Positions 6,713 to 63,158 of a stretch of 64,000 nt of DNA are shown here, in pieces. Location of the stretch: contig JAUJYZ010001365.1 in assembly GCA_033675265.1 (NCBI GenBank), forward strand, positions 1 through 64,000, in the 5' to 3' direction. Numbering within the stretch: position 1 is the first letter of the stretch; each line of letters opens with the position of its first letter. The notes beneath the pieces were generated by a model, which was not told the DNA's origin, searched no databases, and was given only the letters and a program-made list of their open reading frames with translations. Source of the DNA: Actinostola sp. cb2023 (Eukaryota > Cnidaria > Anthozoa > Actiniaria > Actinostolidae). Made by a program: the position numbers and the translations under genes.

Positions 6713-6734
6713 GTAAGAAATGGGAAGAAAACTA

Positions 6735-34200: not shown

Positions 34201-35382
34201 CCAGCTTGCACGTGCAAATTGATTAACAACACGTGCTCGAAACTGTTCTGTGGTGTGCTCGAACGTTGGCCAACGTTAGTGTGTGGAAAGTGTCGGCGTG
34301 TCTCACCAACATAACTAGCATTCCATTGCACGTGCAAATTGATAAACAACACGTGCTCGAAACTGTTCTGCGCTGTGCTCGAAAGTTGGCCAACGTTAGT
34401 GTGTGGAAAAGTGTCGGCGGGTCTCACCAACATAACTAGCATTCCAGCTTGCACGTGCAAATTGATTAACAACACGTGCTCGAAACTGTTCTGTGGTGTG
34501 CTCGAACGTTGGCCAAACGTTAGTGTGTGGAAAAGTGTCGGCGTGTGTCTCACCAACATAACTAGCATTCCAGCTTGCACGTGCAAATTGATTAACAACA
34601 CGTGCTCGAAACTGTTCTGTGGTGTGCTCGAAATTTGGCCAACGTTAGTGTGTGGAAAGTGTCGGCGTGTCTCACCAACATAACTAGCATTCCATTGCAC
34701 GTGCAAATTGATAAACAACACGTGCTCGAAACTGTTCTGTGGTGTGCTCGAACGTTGGCCAACGTTAGTGTGTGGAAAGTGTCGGCGTGTCTCACCAACA
34801 TAACTAGCATTCCATTGCACGTGCAAATTGATAAACAACACGTGCTCGAAAACTGTTCTGCGCTGTGCTCGAAAGTTGGCCAACGTTAGTGTGTGGAAAG
34901 TGTCGGCGTGTCTCACCAACATAACTAGCATTCCAGCTTGCACGTGCAAATTGATTAACAACACGTGCTCGAAACTGTTCTGTGGTGTGCTCGAACGTTG
35001 GCCAACGTTAGTGTGTGGAAAAGTGTCGGCGTGTCTCACCAACATAACTAGCATTCCAGCTTGCACGTGCAAATTGATTAACAACACGTGCTCGAAACTG
35101 TTCTGTGGTGTGCTCGAACGTTGGCCAACGTTAGTGTGTGGAAAGTGTCGGCGTGTCTTACCAACATAACTAGCATTCCATTGCACGTGCAAATTGATAA
35201 ACAACACGTGCTCGAAACTGTTCTGCGCTGTGCTCGAAAGTTGGCCAACGTTAGTGTGTGGACAAGTGTCGGCGGATCTCACCAACATAACTAGCATTCC
35301 AGCTTGCACGTGCAAATTGATAAACAACACGTGCTCGAAACTGTTCTGTGCTGTGCTCGAAAGTTGGTCAACGTTAGGCAAC
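28300..35382. repeat. 7-kb satellite, 123-bp unit (120-bp variant), about 58 copies
   Basis: The unit runs GTGTGGAAAAGTGTCGGCGT, CTCACCAACATAACTAGC, ATTCCAGCTTGCACGTGCAA, ATTGATAAACAACACGTGCT, CGAAACTGTTCTGTGGTGTG, CTCGAACGTTGGCCAACGTT, AGT. Spacing measured at 33058 and 33181 is 123 bp, that is 41 codons. Variants lack one A (GGAAAGTG) and/or AG plus a base change (CCATTGC, two shorter); together they give 120 bp. Because both lengths are multiples of three, long frames stay open on both strands (up to 678 codons on the minus strand at 31951-33987). Sub-types (CTGGTCTC, GGGTCTC, ATTGATTAAC, GGACAAGTG) are grouped, and a higher-order block of about 1.83-1.95 kb repeats. No promoter or splice support makes these frames genes. 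Confidence 0.95.
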
Positions 35383-36433: not shown

Positions 36434-36654
36434 TTATGGTTTCTGGCAAATGAATGGCCTCTTTTCATTGCACATTTTATTTATCCACTTCCCGTTTGTT
36501 CCCATTGCAACGCAGCTTGTAATCGTTGCTTCAACGTTGGGTTCATAGATAGGCAAAGGTATGTATTGACCAATAGTCGAACCGTCAGACCAACCAAACG
36601 TATTGTCGTCAGTCAGGTCACTCAAACCGATCCATGGTCCATATGCTGACCATT
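36434..36654 (-). CDS. PAN/lectin gene last exon: C-type lectin C-half
   Basis: The minus-strand acceptor is TTTGTTTAG just before 36654. Two bases complete a codon, then WSAYGPWIGLSDLTDD, GWSDGS, CVAMGTNGKWINKMC and RPFICQKP, with TAA at 36436-36434. WIGL, the WSDGS loop, and the C...W...C...FIC pattern are diagnostic of the second half of a C-type lectin-like domain. The usual EPN/QPD-WND calcium-binding set is not intact: IYEPNVE has EPN, but the WND position reads KWINK. Carbohydrate binding is therefore possible but not shown. Entry phase 1 fits both the laminin-G exon at 40034 and the lectin N-half at 55147. The matching N-half is not adjacent. Confidence 0.88.
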
Positions 36655-38085
36655 CTAAACAAATGAAATATGTGTAAATTTTGACTTATATTCTCCATGA
36701 TATGTGATTGTAAATATGGGCAAATGGTAGAGACAATATTCTTTTAAATAAAAATAAAAAAAGAGACAATAAAGTAAAGTAATACTTTGTCGCTTGGTAA
36801 TAGTTAGTAATGTAGTTCCTAATGTTTCATCAAACGTTTGCATGGGCTCCGTATTTTTTCCAAGTATTTGTTTCGCTTACCGAATCCTTACGAACTACAT
36901 TACTAATTGAAATATGGTTGGTATTTGTAATGAAAAATATATTTAAGAAAAAAAATCGAAAATATAATATAGGAGTCTTTCAGCTGAGTCCAAGAAAATA
37001 ATATTTCGTAGGCTGTTGTAAGGAATTCTCTCGTCACCCAATGAATTTTCCTATAGACTCCCATAGCGTTCTCTCTTTTTTTTAACACAAGGGATATCGT
37101 GCGTTCGGTTAATTAGTATTTGTAAGTGCTGGTAGCTCATGAAGGAGGGCTTTTTTCCTTAATCGAGAGCAGTTTTTAAATGTCTGCAGTTCATTTGCTG
37201 CTTGTCCAAACCATTTCAAATTTGTTTGTTCAGATAACAGCTCTGCATTGAAGAAAACTAGTCAAACAATCAAACCTAAGCACATATAAGGTAAAAAAAA
37301 CTGATTCACACAAATGTTTAGCTTCATAGAAATAAAATTAGACGCTTTAACAAGCGTTCACTCGTGCCCTGGTGCGATTGAGCACTGGGATGCGTTGTAC
37401 GTAGCATGAAAGACGTATACTTATGGGCCTCCACCTTCCATTCGTTCAGGGACTGAGCTGTGAAGAACGAAGAGATCAGGAACGAACTGAACTGACCGAG
37501 ACACACGTTCCCAGTCTCACCCCAGACAATACAAAATGGAAGTTAAACTGTTATAATATTTTTTCAGATTTTTCAGATATGATTTAGAGTCCGCGGAACG
37601 ATCTGGTCCGAAAACGCTTGACATCTTTTAGAGTAGGTCTACCGCTAACGGCGTGTGCATTTGTATGTGAGTTAAGCGTATTAGACATACTTCGTTCAAA
37701 TGTTTTTTTTCTCTGGCACTATCGCAAGACGACATAACCTTCCTCCAACAAGGTAATTTGTGAAGAAAGAGGTCAACTGTTGATAAAACCTCATAGACAT
37801 AGATCAGTTTTTAGTGGTCTCGTCTACAGTCACACTCGATTGCAGATTGTGCTTAGTCATCATAGCTGTATTCACGACTAAGCATTTTTCAATGTTTAGA
37901 TCTCAGATAACGATTATAGTGATCAAATCAGTGTTTGGTTACTTGTTGGGTAACTCGGTAGAACATACAGAATTTGGAATCGCCCGGCACTCAACAACAT
38001 AATACCGGCCAGCTCAGAATTTGTATAAACGACTAAAATCGAGAAAACACTTAGATTTTGGAGAACTAGTCAGCTAGATATCCAT
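36655..38085. other. Intron of the PAN/lectin gene, no exon seen
   Basis: I looked on the minus strand for a second C-type lectin N-half (CxxxGGxL near an acceptor and a phase-1 donor) and saw none. The closest resemblance, LNEWKVEAHKYTSF at about 37400-37450, lacks the cysteine and the GGxLV motif. Confidence 0.5.
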
Positions 38086-38089
38086 ATCA

Positions 38090-38985
38090 AACTTATGTCC
38101 TGCATCATTGAACATTTGCTCCTGTTGGGATCCAGTATCACGCGGACAACGTTTTTTGTTAATGCTTTGTTTACTAATGCACGTGAGGCCCGATTGATCC
38201 AGCAATTTGTTCACTATGACCGCTAAATAAAGCAGATTCGTACGTGACTGGTTTATCATTTCTGAATTCATATTTTTCCTTTGACAATGTGTAAATCAGG
38301 TAGCTAAAATATAAGAGAGGATGGAAAAGCTGCATATGTTTCCTCAACGGGAAAATATATCACAAATTCGAACTAACTTATTGATGTCGTGCGTGTTAAT
38401 ATTGGAAATTGCCTTCAAAAAACGTCCTTTCCGAGCCATAATTTATTTGCGAATTCGCCGGCCTATGTAGCTTCTACATACAGACCGAGATACAGAGCAC
38501 CAATATGATGTTCACAATTACCAAACAAAGAGTTTTAGATTTCATTTTGCAACCGCTTAATTAAGTTTAATATACATGTATTTTATATCAAAATGCGCGT
38601 ACAATTACAGAGCATTAGAATCCGGCGGTAGGTTTTTGATTGACACAATTCCCAAAGAATTCAGAGGGATTTTGTGTGCAGCGTATGTCACGCTCTCCTA
38701 TATCTCTTCAGAGATTTCAGTTCGATTGACTTTGAAGAAACGGAAAATGCCACCTTCAAACCTCTTTATTTGTGCTTGAATTGCCAGCTTATTCATTCCT
38801 TACATATTCATCTTTTATATTCCGTTGGTAGGTTTTTTGATTTGTATTTTAACAATGCAGTAAAAAGCAAAAATGTATCAAAATCATGCTGTTTTTCGCC
38901 TAAACAAGACTCGCCTCATCTGCATATGTTAAACAATGACCTTTTGTATAACATAAGTTTGATAAGTTACGTGAGAGATTTTGAC
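38090..38985 (+). repeat. Dispersed 0.9-kb repeat, copy A
   Basis: This matches 52846-53735 in the same orientation, diverged by small indels. Shared blocks include ATTGAACATTTGCTCC, TTGGGATCCAGTATCACGCG and TTCCTCAAC[A/G]GGGAAAATATA. The short protein-like frames inside (LLYLFRDFSSIDFEET) also occur in copy B. It is probably a transposable element of unknown type. Confidence 0.8.
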
Positions 38986-39239
38986 AGCTCAACTTGCCCC
39001 TTGACCTCCGGTGCTTTCTTATTGATTTGTCATTTGTAATCTCTCTTGTGGTCAGACTCGATTTCTCCGTCTCCACATTCTCGACGGTGACCAACAACAA
39101 CAAACAACAACAACAAAAAATATTATACTGTATTATACTTATAACAAGACGCTCAATGAGCGTACACTCGGGCTTATGACAAGGACAATGTCAGTTGCGT
39201 GAGGAGAGACCTGACAATGACTGACAGTTGCGTGACGAG

Positions 39240-39540
39240 GGAGACTATGTATATACATGTATGTGTCGAGTTCATTTGATTTGCCTTTGACTTTGAGTTC
39301 ATTTGATTACCTTTTGACTTTGAGTTCAATTGATTTGATTTTGATGAGTTCGTGTAAAGGCCCCCTCTCTAGCTTCAGATCCCGAAACGTCGAGTTTGGA
39401 ATCGAGTTCGAGTTCGGGTTCGAGTTACGGTTCGAACGTCGAATAAAACAAGGACATCTTCTTCAATACAATATCATTTCTCTGACGTCATGACAATCAG
39501 TGACAGTTGAGTGACGAGGGAGACCATGTGGCGGGTGAGT
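39240..39540 (+). repeat. Local duplications
   Basis: TGAGTTCATTTGATT-type units repeat at 39265-39345, and GTGACAGTTG-GTGACGAGGGAGAC occurs near 39224-39246 and 39500-39525. The G/C-containing FEFGFE-like frame over GAGTTCGAGTTCGGGTTCG is low complexity. Confidence 0.6.
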
Positions 39541-39875
39541 ATGTACATGATACGTCTTGAGGTTGCATAGGTCAGATGGTTCTGATAACGCCCTCACGTT
39601 TGTTTTTGTTAAATATATTTTAAGCGAGCTTCTATTCCTTCTACCACTTCTAGTCATTGAACGATGAACTAGAATCCTGACCTTTAATAGCTTGAAGATC
39701 TACAGCTGCTTTCAAAACTAAGATTCAAATCTACTTGAGTCCTGTTAGTCGTTTGTTTTTTTCTTATCTGCTGAGTAATCTTGAAACTCGATACGATTAA
39801 ATACGTCGCATACTTTCGTCATTCTTTGACCGGACTACGACGACGACGACTACCGAAAAACGCATTTTATAACTC

Positions 39876-39905
39876 GGGCTTCCTTCGGAAGTGCCCGAGT
39901 AAAAA
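39876..39905. repeat. Hairpin ACTCGGGCTTCC-GGAAGTGCCCGAGT
   Basis: A near-perfect short inverted repeat, found again at 49172-49200 (ACTCGGACACTTCC-GGAAGTCCGAGT) and in decayed form near 59285. Confidence 0.65.
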
Positions 39906-40033
39906 TATAATACTGTATTCTTACGACTCGTGCCCGGCCTTAGGCCTGGATACGAGTAATAATTCAAGACATAAATTAAACATGAAGACATGTATTGAAC
40001 GAAGCCGTGATAAATCTTCACGTCACTACTTAC

Positions 40034-40305
40034 CCATGACTGCCTTTATCTCTTCGATGTCTAGAGACCTATTAAACACCATCAGCTGTTTTATTAAACC
40101 GTTAAATGTGTTGTCCCCATTAATGTTTGCTAGATAACCAAGTCGATAGGTCTTGCTTAAGGTGTTTTGTATTTCTGCGTTGGCATATGGTTTGACCAAT
40201 AGGGCCATTTTTACGTACTCGTCATTAACAACAACGTTCGCTCGGTTTGTTGTTCTATTCCAAGTCAATATAATGTTTAACCACTCGAAAGGAGGAACGG
40301 AATCT
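40034..40305 (-). CDS. PAN/lectin gene exon: laminin-G-like domain, C-half
   Basis: The minus acceptor is ACAATTTTTAG and the first A joins CA of the previous exon (Gln). It reads DSVPPFEWLNIILTWNRTTN, then GYLANINGDNTFNGLIKQLM and VFNRSLDIEEIKAVM, ending at the donor ATGG|GTAAGTAG in phase 1. The G(x)LxNxNxxNxFNGLIxxLxVFNRxLxxxEI pattern is the classic end of a LamG/concanavalin-like sheet domain. Length is 272 nt, with no indel. NRT and NRS are N-glycosylation sequons, in keeping with secretion. Confidence 0.85.
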
Positions 40306-40380
40306 CTAAAAATTGTTCAAAAAATAAGATTGGTGATGTAGTAAATACATAGCTAATGATGGATGGGTATTGAATGGATA

Positions 40381-40503
<123 letters not shown>

Positions 40504-40608
40504 ATTCCTCAAAACAAATTACAAATAAGAGATAGAAAAATATATAAAAATCCTTATTTACAAAATTTAAAATGATCGCTTGGATTGTTCAATAACAATT
40601 AACTAATG

Positions 40609-41630
40609 ATAGAGTGCAAACCATATGTCCGTGAAACAATATTAACTAATTAGTACTAAATAGCACTGATGAAACAATAGAAAACAATGGAGATAACACT
40701 ATTTAGTACTATTTAGTAATAGTACTATTTCACGGACATCATCGCACAGAATTACCCATACAAATCGGTCATATCCTTAAAATAGGTTGCATTTGAAGAA
40801 ACGATACACGATCCTTATTTAAATCTCAGAGTTTCCCCCTAAAATAGAAAATGTATCGAAAATTTGGTGGGAAAAGCTTTTATTGGAAGCTTATAGTGAA
40901 TTTCGCGGGTCAATCTCTTAAACTAGAACCCAGTTCCTGCCCGGCCAAACGCTCGCTCCAATGTCATAAATTCCCCTTACTTCGCGGCTTATTTTATCCG
41001 TGGTAAAAAAGAAACTGGTGCTTAAATTTCTGTAGCTATAGCAATGGAGGCTAGGCTGCAAGGTCAAAGGAAAATGGCAGCCGATGGAAGTGCTTTGAAG
41101 CTAAAAATCGTCTCGTAATTTGACATTTTCGACTGCTTCGCTTCGTTGGTATGAAACAGAACTTCAAGAAAAGTCGCTAGTGAACATTGGTATGGAAGAA
41201 AGCTTGATATTGGAAGCAATCCAGCTATGTCGGGGCACCAAAATTCGATTGTTACAATTATTGTATTTCGCAAGGCTGAGCAACAGGAATCGATCGAACT
41301 GCTGGCATGATGAAATCCCATACATTTGAACACTACGGAGACCCGACATTCACCCTGAAAAAGTCGCAAGAAGACGAAAGGATATTTACAATCGATAACT
41401 TGGCAAGTAAACTTCAGTCGCAAGTATTTTGTATTCCGTTGTTACAATTTATCGTAGATCACTGGTTCATTTGTAAATGACAGCCTAAACATTGACTTTC
41501 TTCGATTTTACTGTAAATATTACGAAGATCGAGTGGCCGAGTGCCGTAATGGGAATGGGTCTAGCATATAATTAGGATAATATCCCGGATGTGACACAAA
41601 TTTCTGTGCGATGTATGGTTTGCACTCTAT
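40609..41630. mobile_element. Possible TIR element (about 1 kb)
   Basis: ATAGAGTGCAAACCATA at the left and TATGGTTTGCACTCTAT at the right are perfect inverted 17-mers. The left part also contains a smaller palindrome (TGTCCGTGAAACA...TATTTCACGGACAT, to 40740) related to the MITE at 13486. Interior frames have no known domain. Confidence 0.65.
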
Positions 41631-41714
41631 TAAAATACGAATTAAGAGAGACTTCTTAATAGATTTGATTATAAAATTTAGCGATAAAAAGGTAAAAAAC
41701 GACATTATTTACAC

Positions 41715-42600
41715 GGAGAACGACGACGTTTCGACGTTGGCTTAACGTCATTATCAAGGAAAAATATTTACAAACTATATATAGGAATGAGAATAATGAA
41801 AGAATTATAAACAATAAAACAATAAAACAATGATAAAATAAACAAAATTAAGAAACAAAGTCAAATGAAAAGTTTTGCACGGATGGAGTCCGTTTGTACA
41901 TTTAAACTAGGTTTGATGTTCTTGATAAAAAGCATTTCATAAACAAGGCAGTCCCATTTGTTTTTGCATTTCTTTCGAACTTGAACATTTCTGGCATTGA
42001 AGTCATCGAGGCCACCGTGCTGATTCTTGAAGTGTTTCCCAATAGAAGAGCTCTTAAACTTATGTTCATTGATGCGTTGGAAGAGGTTTCGGGTTGTAAA
42101 CCCAACATAGTCTGCATCACACACCACATTTAAACTTGTAAACAACGCAATGTTGATTAATGATAGTAGGCTTGCTTTCTTTCGGCATGAGAAACTGTTC
42201 GAGTTTACGGCTAGTGAAGACAGGTTGGAGGGGTATTCTAATTTTATTACTTAGATCGTTCATCTGCCTCCTTACTGTGTCAGCTGATCTCTGGTCTTTG
42301 AAAAGGAGGGAAACTCGCACAACTTGGTCATTGTTATCTCCACTTGTATCTGGGGGTGACTGGTTTCTACTTGTTATAACAGACTTGTTAATAGCGGAGT
42401 TGATGACATCCAATGGATAATTTAGACGAGTGAATATTGAACGCAATTTGTCGCACTCTTGATTAAAGAATTCCGATGTTGAAGACAAAGCTTGGGCGCG
42501 ATGCACCATAGTTTTCAGAAGACAGTTCTTATAACGTGCATCAACATGACCTATTATAGTGTAGTAATAACCCGGTATTGGTAGGTTTTCTATAGACTCT
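41715..42600 (-). mobile_element. Penelope-like retroelement, 5'-truncated, with GIY-YIG endonuclease
   Basis: Two minus frames, 42509-42117 and 42145-41861, form one protein joined by a frameshift at a GTGTGTG run near 42125. The first holds the end of the reverse transcriptase linker (IPLQPVFTSRKLEQFLMPKE). The second is a GIY-YIG nuclease: DADYVGFTTRNLFQRINEHK, then KHFKNQHGG, KKCKNKWDCLVYEMLFIKNI and PSLN. The Arg, His, Glu and Asn of the active centre are all visible. After the stop the 3' tail carries CCTTGATAATGACGTTAAGC and CGTCGAAACGTCG (41755-41722), the Penelope-type end. It is dead as written, since the RT core is missing and the frame is broken. Confidence 0.85.
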
Positions 42601-42734
42601 GGTCTCTAGTTTTGTCCCATTTTGAATTATGTCCAACCAAGAAAAGGGATTGTGTTGTCAACTGGTAATTCCATGGTGAAAATACAAACAATAAATATGA
42701 ATAATATAATATAAGCAATATATATAAAGGATAA

Positions 42735-42755
42735 AGATAAATAATAATAATAATA

Positions 42756-42837
<82 letters not shown>
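42735..42837. repeat. (AAT)n microsatellite
   Basis: A run of AAT of about 100 bp immediately joined to a Penelope-type tail at 42843. Confidence 0.95.
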
Positions 42838-42890
42838 TAAAAAGACCGACGTTTCGGAGTCAACATGACGCCATTATCAAGGTGAAGTGA
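42838..42890 (-). mobile_element. Penelope-type 3' tail
   Basis: On the minus strand: CACCTTGATAATGGCGTCAT, GTTGACTCCGAAACGTCGGT. This is nearly the same ending as the element at 41722, without coding sequence. Confidence 0.65.
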
Positions 42891-43224
42891 CGAGAAATTC
42901 ATTGAATAATATTCTTGAAGCGTTTGCAAATTAACATAAAAAAGTTATGACCACGCCGGGTCAGAAAAGGCCTAAAATGTATTTTGTCGGAATAACTTCT
43001 ACAGTTTTCATCCAATCAAGATGAACCTTTAGGCAATATGACAGTATATGTGAAGCTAACAAATCGTATGATTTTTTCTTCTTGATTTTTAATGTTTTTT
43101 TGGCGGGAAAATGACGTCATGAAGATGCCAACATTTTTCGAAATTCACAAATTCATTATTCTGAATATTACATTCGAAAGAACATGTTAAAGTAAAGTTG
43201 TAACTAAAACGGTTCTCCGATATC

Positions 43225-43645
43225 GCTATTCAATCCAAATATATTAATTTTTGAAAATTGAAATTCCGGCCATTTTATCCATTTCGTGCACCAAACAATC
43301 AAATTTGTTTTTGCACTTCTTAAGTACACGAAAGTGCTTATGAATGTCTCTGTGCGATGCAAGATATGTGGGCTACACACGCGGGCATTTGCATGAACGT
43401 GTGACACAAGCAACAAGCTTCTTCCATCTACAAACATTATTGCGCCAAGCATGACATTGCCCCAGGAGACATTCATAAGCACTTCATATAATATAGTTTA
43501 ATATGGTTACCGCGCGCAGAATTACATGCTCGCGCTTGGCTGTTATCTACGTCATAGCTTAGTGGAGTGATTTACAAGGTGTAGCGCGAGCCAACCGTTT
43601 TAGTTTAGCTGATGAAGGCTGAATGGCCGAAACGTCCTGAATAAA
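43225..43645. mobile_element. Penelope-like fragments in inverted arrangement
   Basis: Plus strand 43355-43490 encodes CDARYVGYTRGHLHERVTQ and, after a frame change, SIYKHYCAKHDIAPGDIHKH, a GIY-YIG nuclease N-part. Minus strand 43363-43260 encodes RDIHKHFRVLKKCKNKFDCL and VHEM, the part that should follow. A plus-strand 3' tail (CTGATGAAGGCTGAATGGCC, GAAACGTCC) lies at 43608-43636. The halves are thus oriented head to head and share the DIHKHF segment. Confidence 0.7.
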
Positions 43646-44760
43646 CAGCAACAAAGTAACACGTTCGTGTCTTGCTTTTAGTGCTACATTGTACTATATA
43701 CTCCTCCTACGGCCTACGGCCTACGGCTCGTGCTCTCCCTACACTTATTTCGTGCTCTCGTCACTTCCTTCGTGCTGTATTACTGAAGTTGTTCTATTTG
43801 TTTAAATATATTTTTACCACAACTAGTCAATTTCTCGCTCTCTCATTGGTCGATCAACCGTGGTCTATCAGAATACATACCACATAATACATAATTATAT
43901 ATTTTGTCATATATTCTCATCGTTTAAACGAAAAACATGTTTTTAGTTACATTTTTTTTACAGCGAGTAAGAGTACACACCGAGCTGACTATCGTAAATC
44001 ACAACCACAGTTCATAGCATTAGCAAGCCAAACTTTCCATAAGTTGGATGCAGCGCGTCTTCCACAGTTTGTTCTTTCATTCAAGTAAAAAACTCGATGC
44101 TATTCACGGGGAAAAAAGTTCATTTGTTAACTTTTGGACCCTCTGATGATAAATCCATGACTTGAGAAAATCCACAGACCATGAATATATACTCCGCTGA
44201 AGTGCTGTTCTCTAACTTTATTTCATATTTTTCAAGCGACCTCGTGCTTTTCTCCATTTGACTGCATTTTCCAGATTTTAGAGTATTCCTGCGGCTTTGT
44301 TGACTGTCAGAAAGGCATCTTTCAGATTTCACACAATGACCAGGCACAGGGTGAAGCTTTCCCCACTGATAATTAATTCTCTGAGAGTTTCTGTCAGACT
44401 TGAAAACTCTGATTTTGAACCAATTTTGGCTGATCCCCGAGCCAAGGCTGTTTGCCGATAAAATTGAAAACTGATTTGACAAGCTTGCAAGTAGCATTCA
44501 AATGGTTTGTTTACAAATTCCATCACCCAATGAAAAAGCGAGAAAATGATAGACCATGATCGCGCATCGCGTCTGCGATGTTTTTTGAGTAATAAGCAAA
44601 AGCTTTTCGTTGGTAACTTGCGGGATTTATTTTGTTTTTGTGGTACTGAAAAAAACAAATAACCAAATATTTTGTTGTGGTATGTCCTCCGATAGACCAC
44701 GGTTTGCGCCATCTCGTCATCACAATTGTTCAATTTTTTAGTTATTATTATGTTTTTATT
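43646..44760. other. Intron, no exon seen
   Basis: The minus frames at 44120-44497 and 44329-44733 overlap in different frames, lack recognisable domains, and have no supporting splice sites. GCCTACGGCCTACGGC at 43708 is a tiny repeat. Confidence 0.4.
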
Positions 44761-44762
44761 AC

Positions 44763-44800
44763 TGAAGAAGACCGAAGGTCGAAACGTTTAGTAAAGTTTT
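44763..44800 (+). mobile_element. Penelope-type 3' tail remnant
   Basis: CTGAAGAAGACCGAAGGTC followed by GAAACGTTTAG, the hairpin plus CGAAACG motif. No coding part is attached. Confidence 0.45.
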
Positions 44801-45007
44801 CAAGACATTAGAAGTTGCCTGCCTTCTTTTATATACTGCATTTGATAGTAGTAATTTCGAGCTCATGCAATCTTTGCACGAATTTGTTTTGAAAACTGGC
44901 TTCAAATATTCCTTCATAATATCACTTTTCTGCAATTAGACTACTCTACCTCGTTATATTTTGAATTTCCAACTTCAGTTAAATCTCCTCTCAGAAGCTT
45001 TCCTGAA

Positions 45008-45194
45008 GAAATAGAAAACGAGCGCGCGTGCTATGTGCAGATTTATAGCACGCGGGGACTGATCAGAACACGAGCGAAGTGTTAAGAAAAGCACGACGCG
45101 TAGCGGAGTGCTTCTCAACACTTCTCGAGTGTTCTGATCAGTCCGCAAGTGCTGTAAATCTGCACATAGCACAGCGGGCAAATTTTCTATTTCT
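45008..45194. mobile_element. Long imperfect palindrome / foldback MITE
   Basis: GAAATAGAAAA and TTTTCTATTTC form the outermost pair. Further in, TGCTATGTGCAGATTTA pairs with TAAATCTGCACATAGCA and GGACTGATCAGAACAC with GTGTTCTGATCAGTCC. Confidence 0.85.
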
Positions 45195-45323
45195 TTTATA
45201 AAATAAAATAATGATTTTAAGGCAAGTTTTCGCACGCTCACATCATCGGCATATCGCGCGCTCTGAAATCAATTGGAAAATAAAATTGCTTTATTTGAAT
45301 TTGCAGTGACTATGTTATAAAAG

Positions 45324-45429
45324 AAATGGTCAACTCTTCAGCGTGCGACTCTTATTCTTCTCTCGTGCTTAGCGGCTCCAGCGTGTATCCATAACTCGAT
45401 GGACGCACGCTGAGCGTTGACCATTCCTT
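45324..45429. mobile_element. Small foldback
   Basis: GAAATGGTCAACTCTTCAGC and GCTGAGCGTTGACCATTCC are near-inverted, with CGTGCG and CGCACG inside. It lies in the intron after the laminin-G exon. Confidence 0.7.
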
Positions 45430-45578
45430 CAAGGAGTCTCCACAGTTATGACTAAAAGTACTGGATAATAAATTATTACTTGCAACATGTGTTTACTGGA
45501 CAAATTTAACCTGCTTGTTATTATGTATTCAATTTAAATACCTAGTTTTGGTTCTACACAGTGTGTATATATACTTAC

Positions 45579-45890
45579 TGAACTGTCCTCATTGACAGAA
45601 ACGTACTTCGGGTTGAACTGAAAATCTCAAATTGGATATGTTGTTTTGTTGCCGTTACATGTCTCAGATAAAAGCCAGGATTGCCAGACGAAGGAATGTC
45701 ACTGTAAATGGTTCCAACATCCTGACTGTCCAGGGTATTAATTATAGTCTTGAAAGCTATGGTGAATCCCTCGGGATTGAACGGGACGGCGGGCAAATCG
45801 GCAGCGCTGTTGTCTTGTTTTAAGCTGAGACATGTTTCGCCTACGCAGTTCTGGTAGCTTGCTTTATTTTGATGTCCTTCGACGTGTAGC
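45579..45890 (-). CDS. PAN/lectin gene exon: laminin-G-like domain, N-half
   Basis: The minus acceptor is TTGCTTTCTAG; G completes AG from the previous exon (Arg). It reads RLHVEGHQNKASYQNCVGET, CLSLKQDNSAADLP, FNPEGFTIAFKTIIN and so on, ending at GTTCA|GTAAGTAT in phase 2. Length is 312 nt, clean. The GxCLxL...FTIAFxxxI strand pattern is that of LamG/pentraxin-like folds, and the two cysteines probably pair. Such domains bind sugars, steroids or matrix proteins; the ligand is unknown here. Confidence 0.85.
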
Positions 45891-45944
45891 CTAGAAAGCA
45901 ACATTTGTTTGATATCATTAACTTGGAATTTATGAAACGAAGAA

Positions 45945-45980
45945 ACCAAGCTTTCGGACTACGTGCTCTTCTTCAGGGTA
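45945..45980 (-). mobile_element. Penelope-type tail remnant
   Basis: On the minus strand CCCTGAAGAAGAGCACGTAG, TCCGAAAGCTTGG has the usual order of tail motifs. Its target side touches the TA-flanked MITE at 45985. Confidence 0.4.
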
Positions 45981-45984
45981 ACAA

Positions 45985-46180
45985 TAGGGCCATTTATACG
46001 AGACCAAATAAGCCGCGGCTTACATAAGACGAGAACTAACCCATTTATACGAGCGAGTCTGTCCGTGGCTTACGCTAGATGCGGCTTATATAAGACGCGA
46101 ACGAAGTTTTTGTATCATTTATACGCGTGTTCGCGTCTTATGTAAGCCGCGGCTTATTTGGTCTCGTATAATTGGCCCTA
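45985..46180. mobile_element. TA-flanked MITE with inverted ends of about 46 bp
   Basis: TAGGGCCATTTATACGAGAC with CAAATAAGCCGCGGCTTACA at the left, and the same inverted at the right (one or two mismatches). TA is at both edges. It lies 95 bp upstream, in minus sense, of the laminin-G exon acceptor. Confidence 0.85.
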
Positions 46181-46319
46181 ATGTGTGTATTGACGTCATT
46201 ACAACTTTGAAGAAACTAATGGGTGTGACGTTGTACAGCACAACTTACAAACAGTTAAGGATTGCTTATCTTTCTCCTTTCCTTTCTACGGCTAACACTT
46301 GGAAGGCTTTTATGTACAG

Positions 46320-46412
46320 TTTAATAAACGAGCAGGAGTGTTTTATCGGGATTAAAACCACGAGACGAAGCCGAGTGGTTTTAGAACCAATAAAACACGA
46401 TCTGCGAGGTTA
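46320..46412. mobile_element. Foldback MITE
   Basis: AGTGTTTTATCGGGATTAAA and TAGAACCAATAAAACAC form the arms around CCACGAGACGAAGCCGAGTGG. Confidence 0.65.
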
Positions 46413-47575
46413 TTGAATCGCTTACATACATACATATTGTTATGCCACGCTTTTCAAGCATTTTATATTTTTATTAATCAAGTAATTTTCAGTAACATCT
46501 TGTAAAGATCTATTTTTAATATTTGTCTTACAAGCTGATCACGTGTTATAGTATGTTTCAACGACAGTTAGGAAATCGGTATTCGATTGCGCCTAAGTAG
46601 TTGGAGTGGGATTAGGCAGGTCTCTGTAACAGGTATGACCTACGCGTTGCATACGCAATCTAAATTGAAGGCTACGGGATCGTACCGTTGCAGTATGACC
46701 GGTTCCCCCCACCAAGTACCTATGCAGAACAGTTATTCAAGTACATTAGTAATTGTAGGGAATAACAAAATGGAGTATGTAGAGTTTTTATGAAAAAGTT
46801 AGTTGTCACGTGGTCAGTCCGCACTTATTCTATTGGACAATAAAGTTGTAGTACTCTGTGAGCTAAAATACGATATAACCATGCAGGAACGCATTCCCTA
46901 CGGCTTCCTTAAATTGAGACAAAATATGCCAGTAACGGGTCCTTCATATGTCAGAAAAGTAACTGACTAAGGACCGGGGTACTGTCTGGTTGTATGGTAT
47001 AAAAAGCCACGAGAAACATTGTAAAATCAGAGAGAAGTTAGCGGTAAAATAAAGAAGCCAAGTACAGATCAACATTTGAGTAAGGTATGCTTCTACAACC
47101 TTGAGATCCTTTTAGTACGTAACAATACATACATACATACATCGTTTATTGTACCTCCCAAGCTTCAAAAACGATCTTCCAAAATAACTTTTATACATTT
47201 TCGAATGATTTCAGTAAACAACAGGAAGGTAAGCACAAACATAGCAGTATCGTGTTGCTTCTAACGCCTCACACATGCGCACCGATACTCTCAAAAAGTC
47301 CCACATTTGAACGATGGTCCGAAAGTATGACCTAGGAGGAATCTTTCCGGAAAACATTGATGTCGTCTCGTACAGGAAACTGGGAGGTCAATGATACGAC
47401 ACCAATATGAGACCTTCCCTTATTAGTATGGCCACTACTTTGATGGGCTTGGGCCTATTTGATCGGCCGTTGGAAAATAAAGGCGATATATGGTCGACAA
47501 TTCACTTCTAGAATTCTGTTCTTTTATATTTTCAATTGAAAATTGTTGCTTGGCTTATAGTTTTATATATAAATA
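46413..47575. other. Intron, no exon seen; (CATA)n at 47125-47142
   Basis: The frames at 46587-46793 and 47076-47264 have no domain. The CATACATACATACATC run followed by GTTTATTGTACCTCCCAAGC looks like a minus-strand retroelement tail. Confidence 0.4.
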
Positions 47576-47579
47576 GAAA

Positions 47580-47640
47580 AGCAAATGCTACACGAAGTTT
47601 CGATGTCACATACATCATTATCAAGAGAAACTAATGTACA
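47580..47640 (-). mobile_element. Penelope-type tail remnant
   Basis: The minus strand gives TCTTGATAATGATGTATGTG and ACATCGAAACTTCGTG, the tail motif with CGAAAC. Confidence 0.45.
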
Positions 47641-49990
47641 ATAATTTAAAATTGCTTTCTAACAAAACATTAACACATGGCGAACAATTTCATACAGTCA
47701 GCGGATGACATTGCTGGCGCGTAAATGACACGTTTTTATTCTAAGAAAACACTGGCCTTTTATCGTAAAATTAGAGCGATTGTGTGATATTACATTGCTT
47801 TTATTTTTGTCTATTGTTATTATAATACTGCAGATTAGCATATTTCGATATTTCGGAAGAGCGTTCGCAAGGTGGAATGCACAAGAGAAGGTGACAAACT
47901 AGAACAAAAGAGCTGCATATGATGAATCAACAACTTACAACTACTAAAACTGGTTGAAAAATGTTCTGATTTGAAGCTTATATTTGGCGGCCTTAAATTG
48001 TTTCAATGAGCTTGATTTTACAAGAACATCTCAGCTACAATCTAAATTTGAGCATAGTCAATTTTAAACAAAATTTACCGACGGTATTTTTAATTATGAC
48101 TTTTTTAGTAAAAATAGAACGAATGGTGGACAATAAATGCAAAATAAACACCTCATCGTGTATGACTTGAGCTCACATTTTCCGATATCATTGCAAGCGA
48201 TTTCTCTCAACTTTTCCAGAAAAGTAGTTCAATATCATTACAACAATTCAAGTCTAAAATTGAGTTTTGATGCGCCCGATTTACTTGGATTTCAGTTGAA
48301 TGATTTAATTACTTTATTTACGCTTGAATTATATACTCAAAACATTTCATCGAAGATATCTCACAAACGCTCTCACATAATTTGCTTGTATTCACTATAA
48401 CTAGAGACAATTATGCCCACTATAAGATCACAAGAACATTTCCCAAAAATAACCCCCTAGAATCTATAGAAATCGAGAATATGTAAAAAGAGGAATTCTC
48501 TCTCAGCGTTGCCATAGTAACGCCGATCTCCATAAAACATACTTCATCAGAAACTTTGATCATTCTGTAACAAGGTTGTAATACTCAATTTACCAATAGA
48601 TCGTTCACAAACGAACAATTGTGTTTCAAACGCAAGAGGTATCGCTACGGAAAAAAAAACAAAAGGACAACAATGGGATAATCACCGAAAAACTACCAAG
48701 TTGTAAACGATTTGGGAACAACCAAAGAGGACATTTTCAGCGATTTTAATATGGAGTTATTTGAAATGGACACTTGAACTTTCGAATCAGACTTGTGGAA
48801 AGAAGCTCGAACTCCTGAAAAATGTTCTGAACTACAATAACTGTACGGCATCTCGGGTCAGTTACAAAGACAGTATGGCGGATGCTTAGCTAATTATACC
48901 TATTTTTCAACGGACTTGGGAACAATGTTAGGCATATTCCACATGAGAGAAACACTAACCATGGGCGAGACGAAGTATGAAAGAATGATTTGGGACTTGT
49001 GGAGATTGAGGAACCGTAATGATATAAAGAGGTACGACAAATATTGAATGAAAATGCACTGTTTTCTCTGTAATTTTGAAGTGACCCGTAGTTGAATACG
49101 AGTGAGCATTGCGCATGCTCGCGGCCATGGTGTATGAAATTGTTCGCCATTCTTCTTTTTTTTATTTATTACTCGGACACTTCCGGAGGAAGTCCGAGTT
49201 ATAACATGCGCTTTCTTTTGTATTTATATTTTTCTTCGTAGTACACGGGCAAAATGCGAAGAATGTGATCGTATCGGTCAGGAATGTCTGTTTCACGGTT
49301 TCGATTGGCTGAAAACGGGGGTGATGATACCCGAACGCCTAATGAAGTAATTCTATGCTGAAACGGGTCAAATAATTTTCGAGCGTATATCAAACTAAAT
49401 CCGAAGTATTGTTCGCTCTAGGGTTATCGTTAATAGAAGTTATATATCATCGTTCCACGACTACCGACTAGAAGTGCTGTGTAGAAGCTCGTGCTGTATC
49501 ACTACGAAATTCGATCACTTGTCTGAAACTTCAGTTGTCTTGCTACGGGACGCGTCTTGGTTTAATTTGGTTATAACATTTAGGGATTAAGCCTACAGGC
49601 ATATCATTTCGGCTACTGCATTATCCTTTTTAATAATGGCCGAGTATACGTTCATTGATCGTCTTGTTACTATTATTATTGTACTTTTGTTTACAATATA
49701 TAATTTTTTTTTACAATGACACCGTTTAGTATTAAATATATAGATATGATATAATAATTACAATTGATAATAATTACATACACACACACAAAGAGAAATA
49801 GAGAAATAAAATAAAAATGTCTTTTTTTTATATATAGGGCGAGTAAAATAATTAATTAATAAAAACAAAAAGGAACAACAATTCATTCAAAGTTCATTTC
49901 TAGCCATTTTTCCTTATAACTATTCATGTCTCCATTTTTTGCAAAAATATTTGTTTCAGTATCTTGCGGCTTACATTGAACTATTTTACC
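47641..49990. other. Intron, no exon seen; hairpin at 49172-49200
   Basis: An 87-codon plus frame at 48137-48400 and short minus frames have no recognised domain. AT-rich sequence with a CACACACACA run near 49780. Confidence 0.4.
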
Positions 49991-49995
49991 ATTAA

Positions 49996-50925
49996 AGGGG
50001 CTATGTCATCCGTGGCGCATGCGCGGTCGATAAGCTCTATCTTGAAAACACTGGCCCAATGTTTTCAAGTTTCACCCGTGAGATAGCGTTGTTCATTAAA
50101 CCATGTAAATCTTTGTAATCTTTTGAACTGGCTGTGGAGTGACCGTTTCGAATTAGTCTTTGGACATCCTCCATTAGTCGGAGGATAATATTTTGAGTAT
50201 TATTGGACAATGAGGGATGATAATGAGAGTTGTTCAACAACCAAAACAAATTTCATGGCGGCCGTCGAAGCGGCAGTGGAAGGAGAAGACTCAGTATAAG
50301 TCAGTCAAAGAAAGAAATAGAGACTACCAGAAGACACACAGCCGTTGATGGTTACCTGCTGCGGTTTCTACATCCTGTAACAGAACTAAGTTTCGTACTG
50401 GATATCGTTCAGACGATTCATTTGCCCTTCATCTTCTTACGATAGAGGAGCGACTGATCTCGAAGGATAGTCTTGCATGGACAAACACGCGAACTCTCAG
50501 TCGTTCTGCGTGAACATATGTAGTTTTTCAGGTGCATGGTTCATTCGTCTATATAGTATGAAGGAAAAAAAACAACAAATAAAGGTCATCACCTGATAGT
50601 GACATAACTTACTGACCGGAATGTTGTTCGAAAGTAAGTCACAACATCGATCATTTCAATTGAAAATTATAAAAAATATCCTCACCTCAGTCTGTTCAGT
50701 TCCCGATGCAGTCTCCATTGCTTATAAAATCGTCTATATGAGACTGTTAGCAGGGAAGAAGCTTGCAGATAGGTTTTAGAATTCCGATAATCACGCTAAA
50801 CATTCACGGCGGCAAAACATCACGCTTCAACTGTCAAAGTTTTAATGTGACATCGCATGCTAATTTATGCTAATTTAAAAAAAATTGGCACTTAGTGCGC
50901 AGACTCCCCAGGTGACATAGCCCCT
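49996..50925. mobile_element. TIR element (930 bp), TTAA target duplication
   Basis: AGGGGCTATGTCA at the left and TGACATAGCCCCT at the right are perfect inverted 13-mers, each directly flanked by TTAA (49992-49995 and 50926-50929). TTAA duplications are typical of piggyBac and Kolobok superfamilies. A minus frame at 50249-50037 and a basic plus frame at 50230-50445 lie inside, but no transposase motif is visible, so it is non-autonomous. Confidence 0.8.
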
Positions 50926-51082
50926 TTAACATCTGCTTGAGTTCTATGTGTCATTTAATTTATTTGCCGATATTTTTTTTTCTGGAATCTACCCAATCGC
51001 AATATGTTTCTCTCCAGATCGAATTTGGTGCCGTATAGGGCCAATTCTCACTTATTATGAAAATATCTTAAAATCTACTGTA

Positions 51083-51265
51083 AAACTAGTACTTTACGGG
51101 ATCTTTCTGGATTGCCAACTCGTTTTATTAATCTTTGTACCAGTGTAGCTAATTACAAGCGTTGCCAGAGATCGTACACAGGCTGAGGCAGAGCCAAGTC
51201 GACCAGAAAGACTTTCCGGCTTAGTAGGTGTGGTTGTCAGAAGGAATTCCTTACTCCTCCACGTT
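51083..51265 (+). repeat. Dispersed repeat, copy 1 (empty site)
   Basis: ACTAGTACTTTACGGGATCT to GTTGTCAGAAGGAATTCCTT is shared with 55440-55675 in the same orientation. Here TAGGTGTGGTTGTCAGAAGG is uninterrupted, whereas the other copy carries a small insertion at that point. Confidence 0.8.
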
Positions 51266-52845
51266 CCTAACTTAGGTCTGTACTTTCAAGCACGACCTGA
51301 ACTACAACCTCAGTCTTGGTTCGTAACTAGTACAAGATATCTAGAGAGTGCGCGCAAGATATGTATAATCGACAGTCCTTATATTATAGCGAAACCTAAT
51401 CTTATCTTCTATTTATATTATATTATTATTATTTACATCACGTGCCTAGACAAAGATAAACCGTTGGTGGTCTATCCTAAATTATTTGGTTAAATAATAG
51501 GATTTATATCGTACAGGAAACTACTTGATGATCTCATGACTACAACAGTCTCGGTTACTAGCTTAATAATATAGATGCAAAAATGACTTGATGATGATTG
51601 GCTGAGAGCTGTGCAGTTCAAGTGTAACCGTACCAGTGCAAAAATCTGTAATACCAGTGCAAATTACAAAATTTTAAGGATCCTGATTAGCTAAAATACA
51701 ATGGAAAATGATATTAGCCAATCACGTTGTAGTAAATCACATCACATTGCAGTGGTTTCCATGGCAATAGAAAATTCACAGAAAATCAAGAAATTCAAGA
51801 TGGCGGACCTTTGCCGAAAAAGGGTTCAAAACCGCTGCCAAACTCACTGGACATATCAAACTCATTGTAACATTTGCCTCTAATTAGTTTCCATGCCCAG
51901 GCCCCCTCTCTGACATGCCGTATAAACAAAATCAAAATCACGTAAAATTTACAACATTTTGTGATTTTACTCGAAAAGTTCGTGAATGACAACCTTTTTA
52001 CCTGTGAATTCATAATATATATAATATCTTAGCTGTAATATAAGATAGTTTTGAAAGTGACAGCTTTACAATTTAATGGGTCAAAATAGATTTAGAAGAG
52101 CTCGGTTGTAGCGATTTTCACAAGAAAGCGTGCCTTGTCGTCACGGTCAGACGGGGATAACTGTGTTTAAACTCTAATACGTATGCTCCAAACGCATTTT
52201 TACCGCGAAAATCGGATTCAGCGATAAATTTCCTTTATTTTGGTATAATATTCACGTATATTACGATTAATTTCAATGGGGCAAACTTCCAAAGTCTATA
52301 GGTCTTTCCATGAATTGTTGATCGTCTTTTGTGTGTCGGTGGAGGCATTTGGAGCCGAGAGTTTCAAGGCGCAAATGGAGATTATTTGAGCAATACACGT
52401 AGCGTTGCACTCTATTCGTCGAAGCGATCGCTGTAACCAACACAGTGAAGTTTTACTCGATTGCCGGCTATTTCCACGACTGTGCGAGATACTGTACGCT
52501 AGCTAAAGCAAATGTTCAAATTTATGGGCAATGAGTTTGATATGATCCATTTTCTACAGTACAAAAGGCAGAAAGAAGGCGAAAGAAGGACTCGCTGCCT
52601 GTTATTCTGGAGTTAGTAAGCACCAAAAACAACATGTTTACCATTTTATAGACTCGACATGAAAGTTGACGGGGGAGCCTTGATTAGAAAGGAAAACTGT
52701 GATAAATGAAGAACATTGTTGGTCTTGTAAGCAAAAGGTTCTTCAAACTTCTACAAATTAATGAAATATTCAACTTGGGTTTGAGTGGTCAGGAAAGGAA
52801 TCATGAATATGCAGTGATTTACAGTAAGTTTAGTCGAATTGATCT
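51266..52845. other. Intron, no exon seen
   Basis: No domain-bearing frame is present. A duplicated AGTGCAAA motif lies near 51630-51665. The rest looks unique. Confidence 0.4.
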
Positions 52846-53735
52846 CCATATCAATATCATTGAACATTTGCTCCCGTTGGGATCCAGTATCACGCGGACA
52901 ACGTTTTTGTTAATGCGGTTGCGCAAAATGATTGAATTACAAAGGTGTTTTGTTTACTAAAGCACGTTTGAGGCCCGATTGATCCAACAATTTGTTCTGT
53001 GGCCGCTAAATAAAGCAGATTCGGACGTGACTGGTTTATCATTTCTCAATTCATCTTTTTCCTTTGACAATGTGTAAATCAGGTAGCTAAAATATAAAAG
53101 AGGATGGCCGTGGTAAGCTGCATATGTTTCCTCAACAGGGGAAAATATATCAAAAATTCGAACTTACTTATTGATCTCGTGTGTAAATATTGGAAATTGC
53201 CTTCAAAAAGCGTCCTTTCCGAGCCATAATTTATTTACGAATTTCCCTATGTAGCTTCTACATACAGATCCGGATACAGAGCACCAATATGATGTTCACT
53301 ATTACCAAAAAAATAATTTTAGATTTCATTTTGCCGCAGCTTAATTAAGTCAATATACATATATTTTATATCAAAATGCGCGTAAAATTATAGAGTATTA
53401 GAATCTGGTGGTAGGTTTTTGATTGACACAATTCCCAAGCGATTGAGAGGGATTTTGTGTGCAGCGTATGTCACTCTCTCCCATACCTCTTCAGATATTT
53501 CAGTTCGATCGATTTTGAAGAAACGAGAAATGCCGCGGTGAAACATATTAATTTTTGCTTGAATTTCCAGCGTACTGATTCCTTACATATTCATATTTTA
53601 TATTTTGCTGGTAGGTTTTTTGTTTTTATTTTAACAATGCAGTAAAAAGCAAAAATATATCAAAATCATGCTGTTTTTATAGATAGACCGCCGTCGCCTC
53701 ATCTCCATATGTGAAACAATGACCTTTTGTATAAC
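52846..53735 (+). repeat. Dispersed 0.9-kb repeat, copy B
   Basis: Same orientation as copy A at 38090-38985, with indels scattered along the length (for example TTGCGCAAAATGATTGAAT present only here). Both copies lie in introns of the same minus-strand gene. Confidence 0.8.
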
Positions 53736-54129
53736 ATAAGTTTGATATGCTGATTGCTTGAATGATTTCAGTCAATTAAAACTGAAGATCAAACTTTTGA
53801 GCTTTTGAGTTATGTACTCGTTTCAACTTTCTAAAATCGATGGACAGCCTTTGTACCTATTACTGTTTGTTGCTGTAATCAGTATGTAGGGATTGTTGTG
53901 TTTGTAGTGTCGATTAATTTACTGATAATTAATGTCAAATAAACGAGTACTTCGCTTGTACGTGCATACTTGTCAACATTTGTCTTTAGCTGTCTAATTT
54001 TCGCTAAATTTTTGCATCTATATTATTTTAATAAATAAAATAATTACTTATTTACCTCTACAAATTAATGCTTGTAAATAACTTGCAAAATCATTAAAAA
54101 ATACATCTATGATTAACAAGTGCACAATT

Positions 54130-54225
54130 CTTGGGTTGCGTCATAGCCGCCATGTTGGATGACAAAGCATTCCTCATTCTAACTTCTCTTGTTAGATATC
54201 ATCCATCATGGCGGCTGTTTCGAAT
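54130..54225. repeat. Short inverted repeat with CCGCCATGTTGGATG
   Basis: GCCGCCATGTTGGATGA and TCATCCATCATGGCGGC pair imperfectly, flanking AACTTCTCTTGTTAG. Confidence 0.55.
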
Positions 54226-54323
54226 TCATTGTTATTTATATCTCAAGATAGCATGCAACTTAGAGCCCAATTGGCGATTTGTATAAGAATAACAAGAACC
54301 TTTATTGTAGTTGTTGGACTCAC

Positions 54324-54372
54324 CTGATGTCTTTGTCGTGGCCATCTAGAGCCCAGTAAAAGTTGCCTGGTG
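54324..54372 (-). CDS. PAN/lectin gene micro-exon (49 nt) opening the laminin-G-like domain
   Basis: The minus acceptor is TTGCTTCAACAG and the donor is ATCAG|GTGAGTCC, both near consensus. With one base from 55147 it reads APGNFYWALDGHDKDI and leaves AG, completed by G at 45890. Phases 1 in and 2 out match both neighbours exactly. YWxLDG is the usual opening strand of LamG-like domains. The exon is too short to be seen by frame length alone; the phase agreement is the main evidence. Confidence 0.8.
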
Positions 54373-55146
54373 CTGTTGAAGCAAATAAGAACCATAAACG
54401 ACAACAAGAAAACTGCAAACTGTCAATCGTTATCATTAATTTATTTAGATTTAGCGGTTAAAATATGTACATTTGATGGGATTGATGTATTTCTCATTCA
54501 CATCAATGGCGGAAAGCCATTCCAGTCAGTCTATGGTTTTTGGCGCTCGATAAGCGCATTCTTATAAAACCTGATATCCTCTTTTAAGAGGATTGAAGGG
54601 GAACTGAAGATATAATTTATTTTCGCAACAAAGTTAGATATTTCTTGTACTAGCATTACTTGAGTATTATTTTTTGGGAATCTTTCTTAGATATCAACGT
54701 AATGTACGTTCAATATGGAATATCATCCGCCATTTTGCCGTTTTACCGTCGGCTCAGATCTGTTTGTTTGTGACATCGTTTTAGGGGAATATTAAAATCC
54801 GTTCACAACATTCTCTCGGGTACAAGAAAATACAATGCACTTATAATTACTCTACATTGTGATTGCACTTTCCCTTAGGATAGACGTCTATTATGGGGAA
54901 TAATTACTGAAGTGAGCCGCGATCATTTCAGCGGTAATCTATGTCATTTTACGATTAAAACTCAAGTTTCTTCTCCATAAAATTAACTACAATTGAAAAT
55001 TATTTTTCAGAAAATGAATGTACACAACATTATCTTTGTTTTTATCGAAATATAAATTTTGGCTACAGTTCTCCTTTAAAATTAAAATTCAGAACATATT
55101 TCCGCTTCCTAAAATCGGCAATTCCATAATGCGTTTGATATTTTAC

Positions 55147-55335
55147 CTCTGTTTTCTGTGTCCTGTAATTCCTTTGCCACCACTTCGTAGACAAAACCAT
55201 CTTTGTAGGCGCTGTTGATCGAAACAAGATTACCACCGATAGACTTACAGTGAGCCTCAGCTTCATTCCAGGTTTTATTTTCCTTGAAGAACTTAAGACT
55301 CGATGAGTCGAGACGGAACCATCCATCTTGCAAAA
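55147..55335 (-). CDS. PAN/lectin gene exon: C-type lectin N-half
   Basis: The minus acceptor is TCCATTGTTGTCAACAG and the donor is AGAG|GTAAAAT, phase 1 at both ends (189 nt). It reads DGWFRLDSSSLKFFKENKTW, NEAEAHCKSIGGNLVSINSA and ends KELQDTENR. W..A...C...GG.LVSI is the diagnostic first half of a C-type lectin-like domain. The split just before the WIGL strand is where the C-half at 36654 takes up. The PAN exon ends in phase 0, so a linking exon of length 3n+1 between 55336 and 56404 is missing from this model. Confidence 0.87.
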
Positions 55336-56404: not shown

Positions 56405-56716
56405 CGCCATTTCATGGTAAACAGACCCAGCTCTATCTACCAGGCCCCCTGCTGCAAGCTTGGTCGAGTTATTCAGGTCACATTCATACGACATTCCATA
56501 AAGCATACGAACGTTGAGGGAGAAACATTTTGGAAGCCACACACACTCTTTCCAACACAGATCTTCTAAACCTTTGGTGACGGTCTTGATCACGTGGCTT
56601 GCTAGTTCCATGCCCTCTGTTTTGACAAACTTGTACGCATCACATGATTCCGAGAAAGAATGGGAGAGACTCAGTATCAAGAATGCTATGGATAAGGAGG
56701 CTCTTAGATGACCCAT
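56405..56716 (-). CDS. Secreted PAN/lectin/laminin-G protein, first exon: signal peptide and PAN/apple domain
   Basis: The start chosen is the ATG at 56716: MGHLRASLSIAFLILSLSHS is a good signal peptide (basic n-region, hydrophobic core, likely cut near SFSES). The upstream in-frame ATG at 56749 would place 11 residues ahead of it. Then comes a PAN/apple-like domain: C at SESCDAY, LCWKECVWLPKCFSLNV with three cysteines, YECDLNNSTK with one. This spacing (CxxxCxxxxxCxxxxx...YxCxLNN) is typical. PAN domains mediate protein or sugar binding outside the cell. The donor ATGGCG|GTAAGT (56404) gives phase 0. The gene then runs 20 kb leftward on the minus strand. Confidence 0.85.
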
Positions 56717-62170: not shown

Positions 62171-62731
62171 AGCCAGATAATTTTATTTTACTACTTTGAA
62201 AAAGTGGATCACTGCGCACGATTTCGCGCATGACGTATACGCGCGTCATCAGTTAGGATCGACATATACGGCGAACTAAAAACCGGCGAAAAGCCATTTG
62301 TTTTGCAGTAATTTTTCACCTGACTTTGAAATGGTTTTCTAAAATAAAGATTTACGTGTTGTCTGAGGAAGGAAGACCTAAACAATAACAATTACGATGA
62401 CAGATGACTCGTTATATTATAGCAAATAAAACTCTTTCCCTACCTGAAACTTGTCAGTGTTGTTTGCCGAAATATTTTATAAGTAGATGTAAACAAAACG
62501 TGACCGCAAATCCCAGCCGTATTATTGTTTTAGATTTGGAAAATTTCAAGATACACTAAAACTCCTCTATTTCTTACTGCACTGTACTACTTTTAGCGCC
62601 GTAATATCGCAGAAGCTGAATGATGCGAGCAGGGCCGAGTTGCTGCATGCTCACGTGCGAGATTATATCGAGAGATCAACAAGTGGGGAGACGTCAAATT
62701 TTCTCGTCTAATTTTCCGTCTTTCCTGCACA
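62171..62731. other. Upstream flank of the Mutator-like gene
   Basis: No exon seen; TTTTCTCGTCTAATTTTCCG just before the start codon is pyrimidine-rich. No TATA box at a credible distance could be chosen. Confidence 0.4.
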
Positions 62732-63158
62732 ATGAAAAACAAAACTTCTTTCAAAACGAAAAAAAAATATTGCCAATTGAATAGTGTATCGAAAGCAGTC
62801 ACTGAAAGGTGGAAAATTGCTAAAACTAAACCAAAAACGATCGCTCATGATCACAGTTATCACGTCGCTTCAGCCAGAACTACACAGAGAAATACTTACC
62901 ACCAGGGATGGAAAGCTGGAAGGAGAATAGTTGATTTAGGCATCTTAGCAGAAGGATTACGCTGCTGCAAGTCATGTGGTAAAGAAAATATGAGCATGGA
63001 CAATATCATCAAAGAAACAAAATTTGGTTTGGGTGGACTTCTTCACATTTTGTGTAAAAACTGCGCTGCCGTAAATAAAGTCGCCTTGGGCAAGAGACAC
63101 GGGATCGCAAATCAGGATCATCAAAAAGTCTGGGATATCAACAGCAAAGCTGCAATAG
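62732..63158 (+). CDS. Mutator-like transposase-domain protein, first exon
   Basis: ATG at 62732 opens a lysine-rich N terminus (KTKKKY, KTKPKT; nuclear-localisation-like). GWKAGRRIVDLGILAEGLRC follows, with paired cysteines CCKSC and later ILCKNC that could hold zinc, and VWDINSKAAIG. The order 'RRIVxLGxLAxxL - C..C - GLGxxLxIxCxxC - DxNxKxAxG' is that of the Mutator-like transposase domain proteins common in cnidarians and molluscs. These are single-copy-looking genes of transposon origin, expected in the nucleus. The donor AATAG|GTAGGA gives phase 1. The frame-adjacent extension RNTLDIRS is intron read-through. Confidence 0.78.

Follow-up and report, generated by a model that had tools for sequence, protein, structure and literature searches.

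The window analysed here, bases 1-64000 of contig C387 in the 424-Mb assembly of the deep-sea anemone Actinostola sp. cb2023, carries on its minus strand a seven-exon gene in which a LamG domain is encoded between the two halves of a C-type lectin domain (CTLD). The gene comprises, in order, a signal peptide with a PAN-like domain, a 49-nt exon, the CTLD N-half, three LamG_3 exons, and the CTLD C-half with the stop codon. A preliminary description of this DNA had named the last five of these exons, and all five are present, at the coordinates and in the phases listed below, with AG/GT borders; the first two had been overlooked. Its view of a single gene, with LamG nested in the CTLD through a symmetric 1-1 cassette, likewise stands, but it did not mention that the architecture is common to a gene family.

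56405..56716, minus strand: exon 1; ATG, signal peptide (recognised by eye) and PAN/apple-like domain; ends in phase 0; near copies carry matching exons with 87.5-99% protein identity
56244..56292, minus strand: exon 2; 49 nt with two cysteines, phase 0/1; located through the homologues P0004 and P0005 and present in five further copies
55147..55335, minus strand: exon 3; CTLD N-half, phase 1/1, stopping directly before the WIGL strand
54324..54372, minus strand: exon 4; start of the LamG cassette, phase 1/2, with an ALDGHD motif
45579..45890, minus strand: exon 5; middle of LamG_3, phase 2/2
40034..40305, minus strand: exon 6; end of LamG_3, phase 2/1
36434..36654, minus strand: exon 7; CTLD C-half (WIGL, EPN-type loop, three cysteines) and stop codon, phase 1/stop

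Domain content of the gene

Joined together, the seven exons read as a single open frame, 467 residues long with LamG and 256 without it. The joined protein is 96% identical over its whole length to the public gene QZH41_010689 of Actinostola sp. cb2023, and the match is less than full because parts are missing in the public model, which lacks the 49-nt exon as well as the initial residues of the CTLD N-half. When joined directly, the two CTLD halves score 71.1 bits (1.5e-19, above the cut-off) against the Pfam family Lectin_C (PF00059), the match spanning residues 19-134 of 135 and profile positions 2-107 of 107; as had been proposed, leaving out the cassette would restore an intact lectin domain. 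The three middle exons score 40.6 bits (3.5e-10; cut-off 27.6 bits) against Laminin_G_3 (PF13385), which upholds their assignment to LamG, and the homologous protein of Actinia reaches 76.4 bits with this family. The product of exon 1 gives a weak Pfam match to PAN_1 (13 bits, cut-off 21.4), and its PAN-like part is 32% identical over 72 columns to the Pfam-recognised PAN part of the Nematostella protein P0025, with a C-[DE]-LNNST stretch in common.

The arrangement could in principle arise from a mis-join, in which a PAN-CTLD gene with a lost C-half lies beside a LamG-CTLD gene with a lost N-half. The long introns of the gene (8.4 and 5.3 kb) and the partial models P0003 and P0005 in the public set would be in keeping with this, but a leftover CTLD half was not found in the window. 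A CTLD profile derived from 64 homologous stretches and run on the 2288 six-frame open reading frames (ORFs) of at least 18 amino acids in the window recovered the known halves at 80.9 and 57.0 bits, with no other ORF above 4.4 bits. With a profile of five family members the known halves scored 128.2 and 105.1 bits and the next ORF in the window 7.5 bits (E 0.47), and a Pfam read-through of the minus strand from 35.4 to 57.5 kb also found no further CTLD half. The hidden second N-half or lost C-half that the preliminary description had looked for and not seen is thus not supported by these searches of the window. Moreover, the same order is found at all readable family loci and in Actinia (see below), and we regard a mis-join as very unlikely.

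Recurrence of the nested order in a gene family

When the public protein was used to query the assembly, 72 exon-level matches were returned, and the fetched stretches were scored by tblastn or with our own profiles. All family loci were thus found starting from a LamG-bearing query. At every locus where both CTLD halves could be placed and the intervening DNA read (12/12), the LamG exons lie between the halves on the same strand. These loci are C387 (the window), C165, C1571, C1334 (a 66-kb and a 1-kb copy), C150, C767, C945, C678, C427 and two on C1280, the last five of them chosen without a prior LamG match. The nested order is also present in Actinia tenebrosa LOC116296022, and LamG stands between the CTLD halves in the public proteins P0002 (Actinostola) and P0004 (Actinia). 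Identity of the CTLD to the window copy is 85% for C1334, 60% for Actinia and 39% for C150 and C767. The region of C165 at 89-122 kb is largely collinear with the window gene region, with pieces mostly 91-98% identical (lowest 84%) and some repeats out of order; it may represent the second allele, retained in the assembly, and is therefore weak as an independent family member. Outside the twelve are a further C1334 copy (part of which reads N, with no N-half seen), C1541 (parts known by search matches only), C201 (no N-half match), C403, C204 and C970 (an N-half match followed by a LamG match, no C-half match), C1280 near 10-13 kb (matches to PAN and N-half only), C882 (matches to PAN and both halves, none to LamG) and contigs matching PAN only.

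Splice phases agree across the family. The N-half donor is in phase 1 in 11/11 loci inspected, the LamG end in 12/12 (C945 not among them) and the C-half acceptor in 13/13. The four CTLD cysteines, one before the insert and three after it, are kept in all 11 aligned members, two of which (C427 and C1280) have WIGM at the WIGL position.

Alternatively, a CTLD intron might harbour a nested or independent LamG gene, of which these LamG exons would be part. LamG_3 exons are indeed very common in the genome, with 150 of 150 scored candidates matching, and contigs such as C454 match PAN and LamG with no CTLD match in the searches made. However, at all loci inspected the phases match those of the CTLD borders, LamG and CTLD are joined in one Actinia protein record, and the CTLD and LamG trees have groups in common (C387/C165, C427/C1280 and C678/C945, with the last two pairs together), the remaining forks being either left open or resolved in just one of the two trees. 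An independent LamG gene is thus highly improbable. Since the LamG tree places Actinia with the window's group (support 100/98), the subgroups, and hence the insertion, may predate the split between Actinostola and Actinia; the CTLD tree does not settle this.

In four near paralogues, at C1571 (16802-22690) and C1334 (31741-33198, 48831-49247 and 141312-141725), a tandem array of 86-bp units repeats the final ~60 bases of LamG exon 6 and its splice donor, with about 66, 17, 5 and 5 units respectively. These arrays put up to dozens of copies of a 5' splice site into the following intron, and most units carry a stop. No such array is reported in the window copy or in C165.

Proposed origin and product

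We propose that the gene encodes a secreted anemone protein in which a complete LamG_3 (concanavalin A (ConA)-like) domain is nested in the CTLD before the WIGL strand, through one old insertion and with the included form as the main product; on the evidence of exons, phases, recurrence in paralogues and in Actinia, and conserved cysteines, this is probably correct. A phase 1-1 LamG cassette would have entered a phase-1 intron of a PAN plus CTLD gene, in the simplest case by a single event that preceded the radiation of the family, and would have been retained through duplication. This supports the earlier suggestion of exon shuffling as the origin of the nesting. In intact genes the included form would be the main working product, a secreted PAN protein. 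In CTLDs the N-half cysteine pairs with the last cysteine, and this conserved disulfide would hold the two co-folded halves together. LamG would then form a large side loop of the CTLD, giving a two-lectin secreted protein with a likely role in recognition. The long loop of CTLDs binds ligands, and the insertion site before the WIGL strand lies away from that loop. The recurrence of the nesting in related Actinostola genes and in Actinia suggests that this design of the protein is old and did not come about by mishap.

Calcium-dependent sugar-binding CTLDs carry EPN or QPD together with WND. The window copy has EPN with WIN in place of WND and so lacks the full combination; at the EPN site near paralogues have KPN, LPN or VPN and distant members have lost the motif, while the WND site reads WIN, WVD, WID, WFA or WFG across the family. 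With only part of the calcium/sugar motif in place, these proteins may bind ligands in a non-classical way. Each distinct near copy has a different loop next to EPN.

A number of observations weigh against this proposal. AlphaFold with a 25-row alignment placed both halves in one CTLD fold, but the model is weak (mean predicted local distance difference test (pLDDT) 50, with LamG mostly under 50) and useful for the CTLD only; its alignment moreover contained intact fish CTLDs, which favours co-folding of the halves. With a 4-row alignment the mean pLDDT was 34. The trees have long branches and weak deep forks, and in the CTLD tree Actinia is not resolved with the window's group. For the Actinia protein only a database record is known to us, and the Actinostola gene set was, according to the Methods of PMC10803348, based on homology and made without RNA-seq. 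C882, where the searches matched PAN, CTLD-N and CTLD-C and gave no LamG match, may be a relative that lacks LamG. Finally, the frame is broken in 6 of the 12 loci, and in five of those six the broken part is LamG:

C1571: two stops, in LamG exons 4 and 6
C767: frame change in LamG exon 5
C427: frame change in LamG exon 6
C678: frame change in LamG exon 6
C945: stop and frame change in LamG exon 6
C1334, 1-kb copy: frame break in the CTLD N-half, the only CTLD break

The broken loci could represent pseudogenes, errors of assembly or genes in which LamG is no longer required. When 6 of 7 breaks in LamG were compared with its share of the length, a rough binomial test gave p 0.036, not counting one further LamG break in C945. 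The LamG breaks leave room for copies that work without LamG and thus count against its steady inclusion in every member; those of C427, C678 and C945 weaken our proposal and strengthen the two alternatives that follow.

Is the cassette skipped or dispensable?

The preliminary description had suggested a splice switch, whereby the cassette is skipped in some tissues or copies to give an intact PAN-CTLD protein and included in others. The cassette is symmetric, with phase-1 borders at every locus inspected, and skipping it leaves the 71-bit CTLD intact. Phase symmetry is, however, kept by any 1-1 module and is expected from a shuffling origin with no skipping required, and a switch argued from phase alone was therefore rejected. 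LamG is included in both public models that extend across the entire cassette (Actinostola P0002 and Actinia P0004), none of the 34 matches to a search with the skipped form was a skipped-form member of the family, and all 12 readable family loci still hold the LamG exons. Skipping would also have to pass three exons across 18.5 kb. None of these comparisons shows skipping. The one hint for it is that LamG is the broken part in 5 of the 6 broken loci, and a switch is unlikely, though less so than a mis-join or a separate LamG gene.

The second alternative is a fast-evolving anemone recognition family in which the LamG insert is variable and partly dispensable, a LamG-free lectin being released by cassette skipping as well. 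This is hinted at by the LG2 changes, the EPN-loop variation and the LamG breaks in five of the six broken loci. Between the window copy and the 66-kb C1334 copy, the ratio of replacement to silent substitution rates (dN/dS) is 0.78 for LG2 and 1.07 for LG3, and 0.45, 0.52 and 0.43 for PAN, N-half and C-half, respectively. Within the C1571/C1334 subgroup LG2 has ~30 replacement and ~3 silent changes, a weak result (one-sided p 0.049) that involves a copy with stops. We consider this alternative quite unlikely and continue to favour a nested protein with LamG included as a rule.

Relation to known lectins

Across the junction, the CTLD profile matches the IgY receptor, the PLA2 receptor, lymphocyte antigen 75 and mannose receptors. 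The anemone family shares the four canonical cysteines with such CTLDs but, unlike those of mannose receptor type, its CTLD is interrupted by a whole LamG and keeps EPN/WND only partly. The LamG domain is similarly akin to the pentraxin-like ConA lectins of Laminin_G_3 (PF13385), its profile having sequence matches in PTX3 and an S-layer protein, but here the domain sits inside another domain. The Nematostella "nattectin" P0025 also has a CTLD and PAN together, but with the CTLD first, PAN second and no LamG. Foldseek returned jelly-roll matches with a template modelling (TM) score of about 0.2 (sialidases, neurotoxin binding domains), and the Actinia protein has a weak Pfam match to PF07953; both were read only as a ConA-like lectin fold and give no evidence of a toxin.

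According to the passages of PMC8260672 that were consulted, a ConA-like lectin domain often occurs together with a CTLD in cnidarians, being the commonest CTLD partner in 4/6 medusozoans and 2/9 anthozoans, and PAN is another CTLD partner; nesting is not mentioned in them. The pairing is therefore already known, and what seems new is the nesting, a domain insertion by a 1-1 exon cassette; fixed-word queries of one open-access library brought up no account of a CTLD with a LamG or ConA-like domain within it. Exon shuffling usually adds whole domains end to end, whereas here it seems to have placed one complete domain inside another, and the family has retained the nested result with its exon phases still legible. 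It thus offers a test case for how a domain tolerates a large insertion, whether two lectin sites in one unit cooperate and whether an inserted domain may turn optional.

Repeats and neighbouring elements

About 1 kb downstream of the gene, positions 28299-35377 hold a 123-bp minisatellite of 58 copies, and the long ORFs on both strands within it were dismissed as repeat artefacts. A second repeat tract (6349-9870) has overlapping ORFs of >1000 amino acids in all three plus-strand frames. At 1133-2297 on the plus strand, ORFs matching Roc (27.3 bits, just above the cut-off) and COR-A (41.5 bits) represent a portion of a ROCO-type GTPase gene. A GIY-YIG fragment (41861-42250, minus strand; 20.4 bits, below the cut-off) sits in the intron that separates LamG exons 5 and 6; GIY-YIG occurs in Penelope-type retroelements. 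A Mutator-like transposase fragment (37 bits) lies at 62624-63187 on the plus strand. Elsewhere in the assembly, contig C370 carries dozens of consecutive LamG_3 matches on one strand between 223 and 363 kb, a large tandem expansion.
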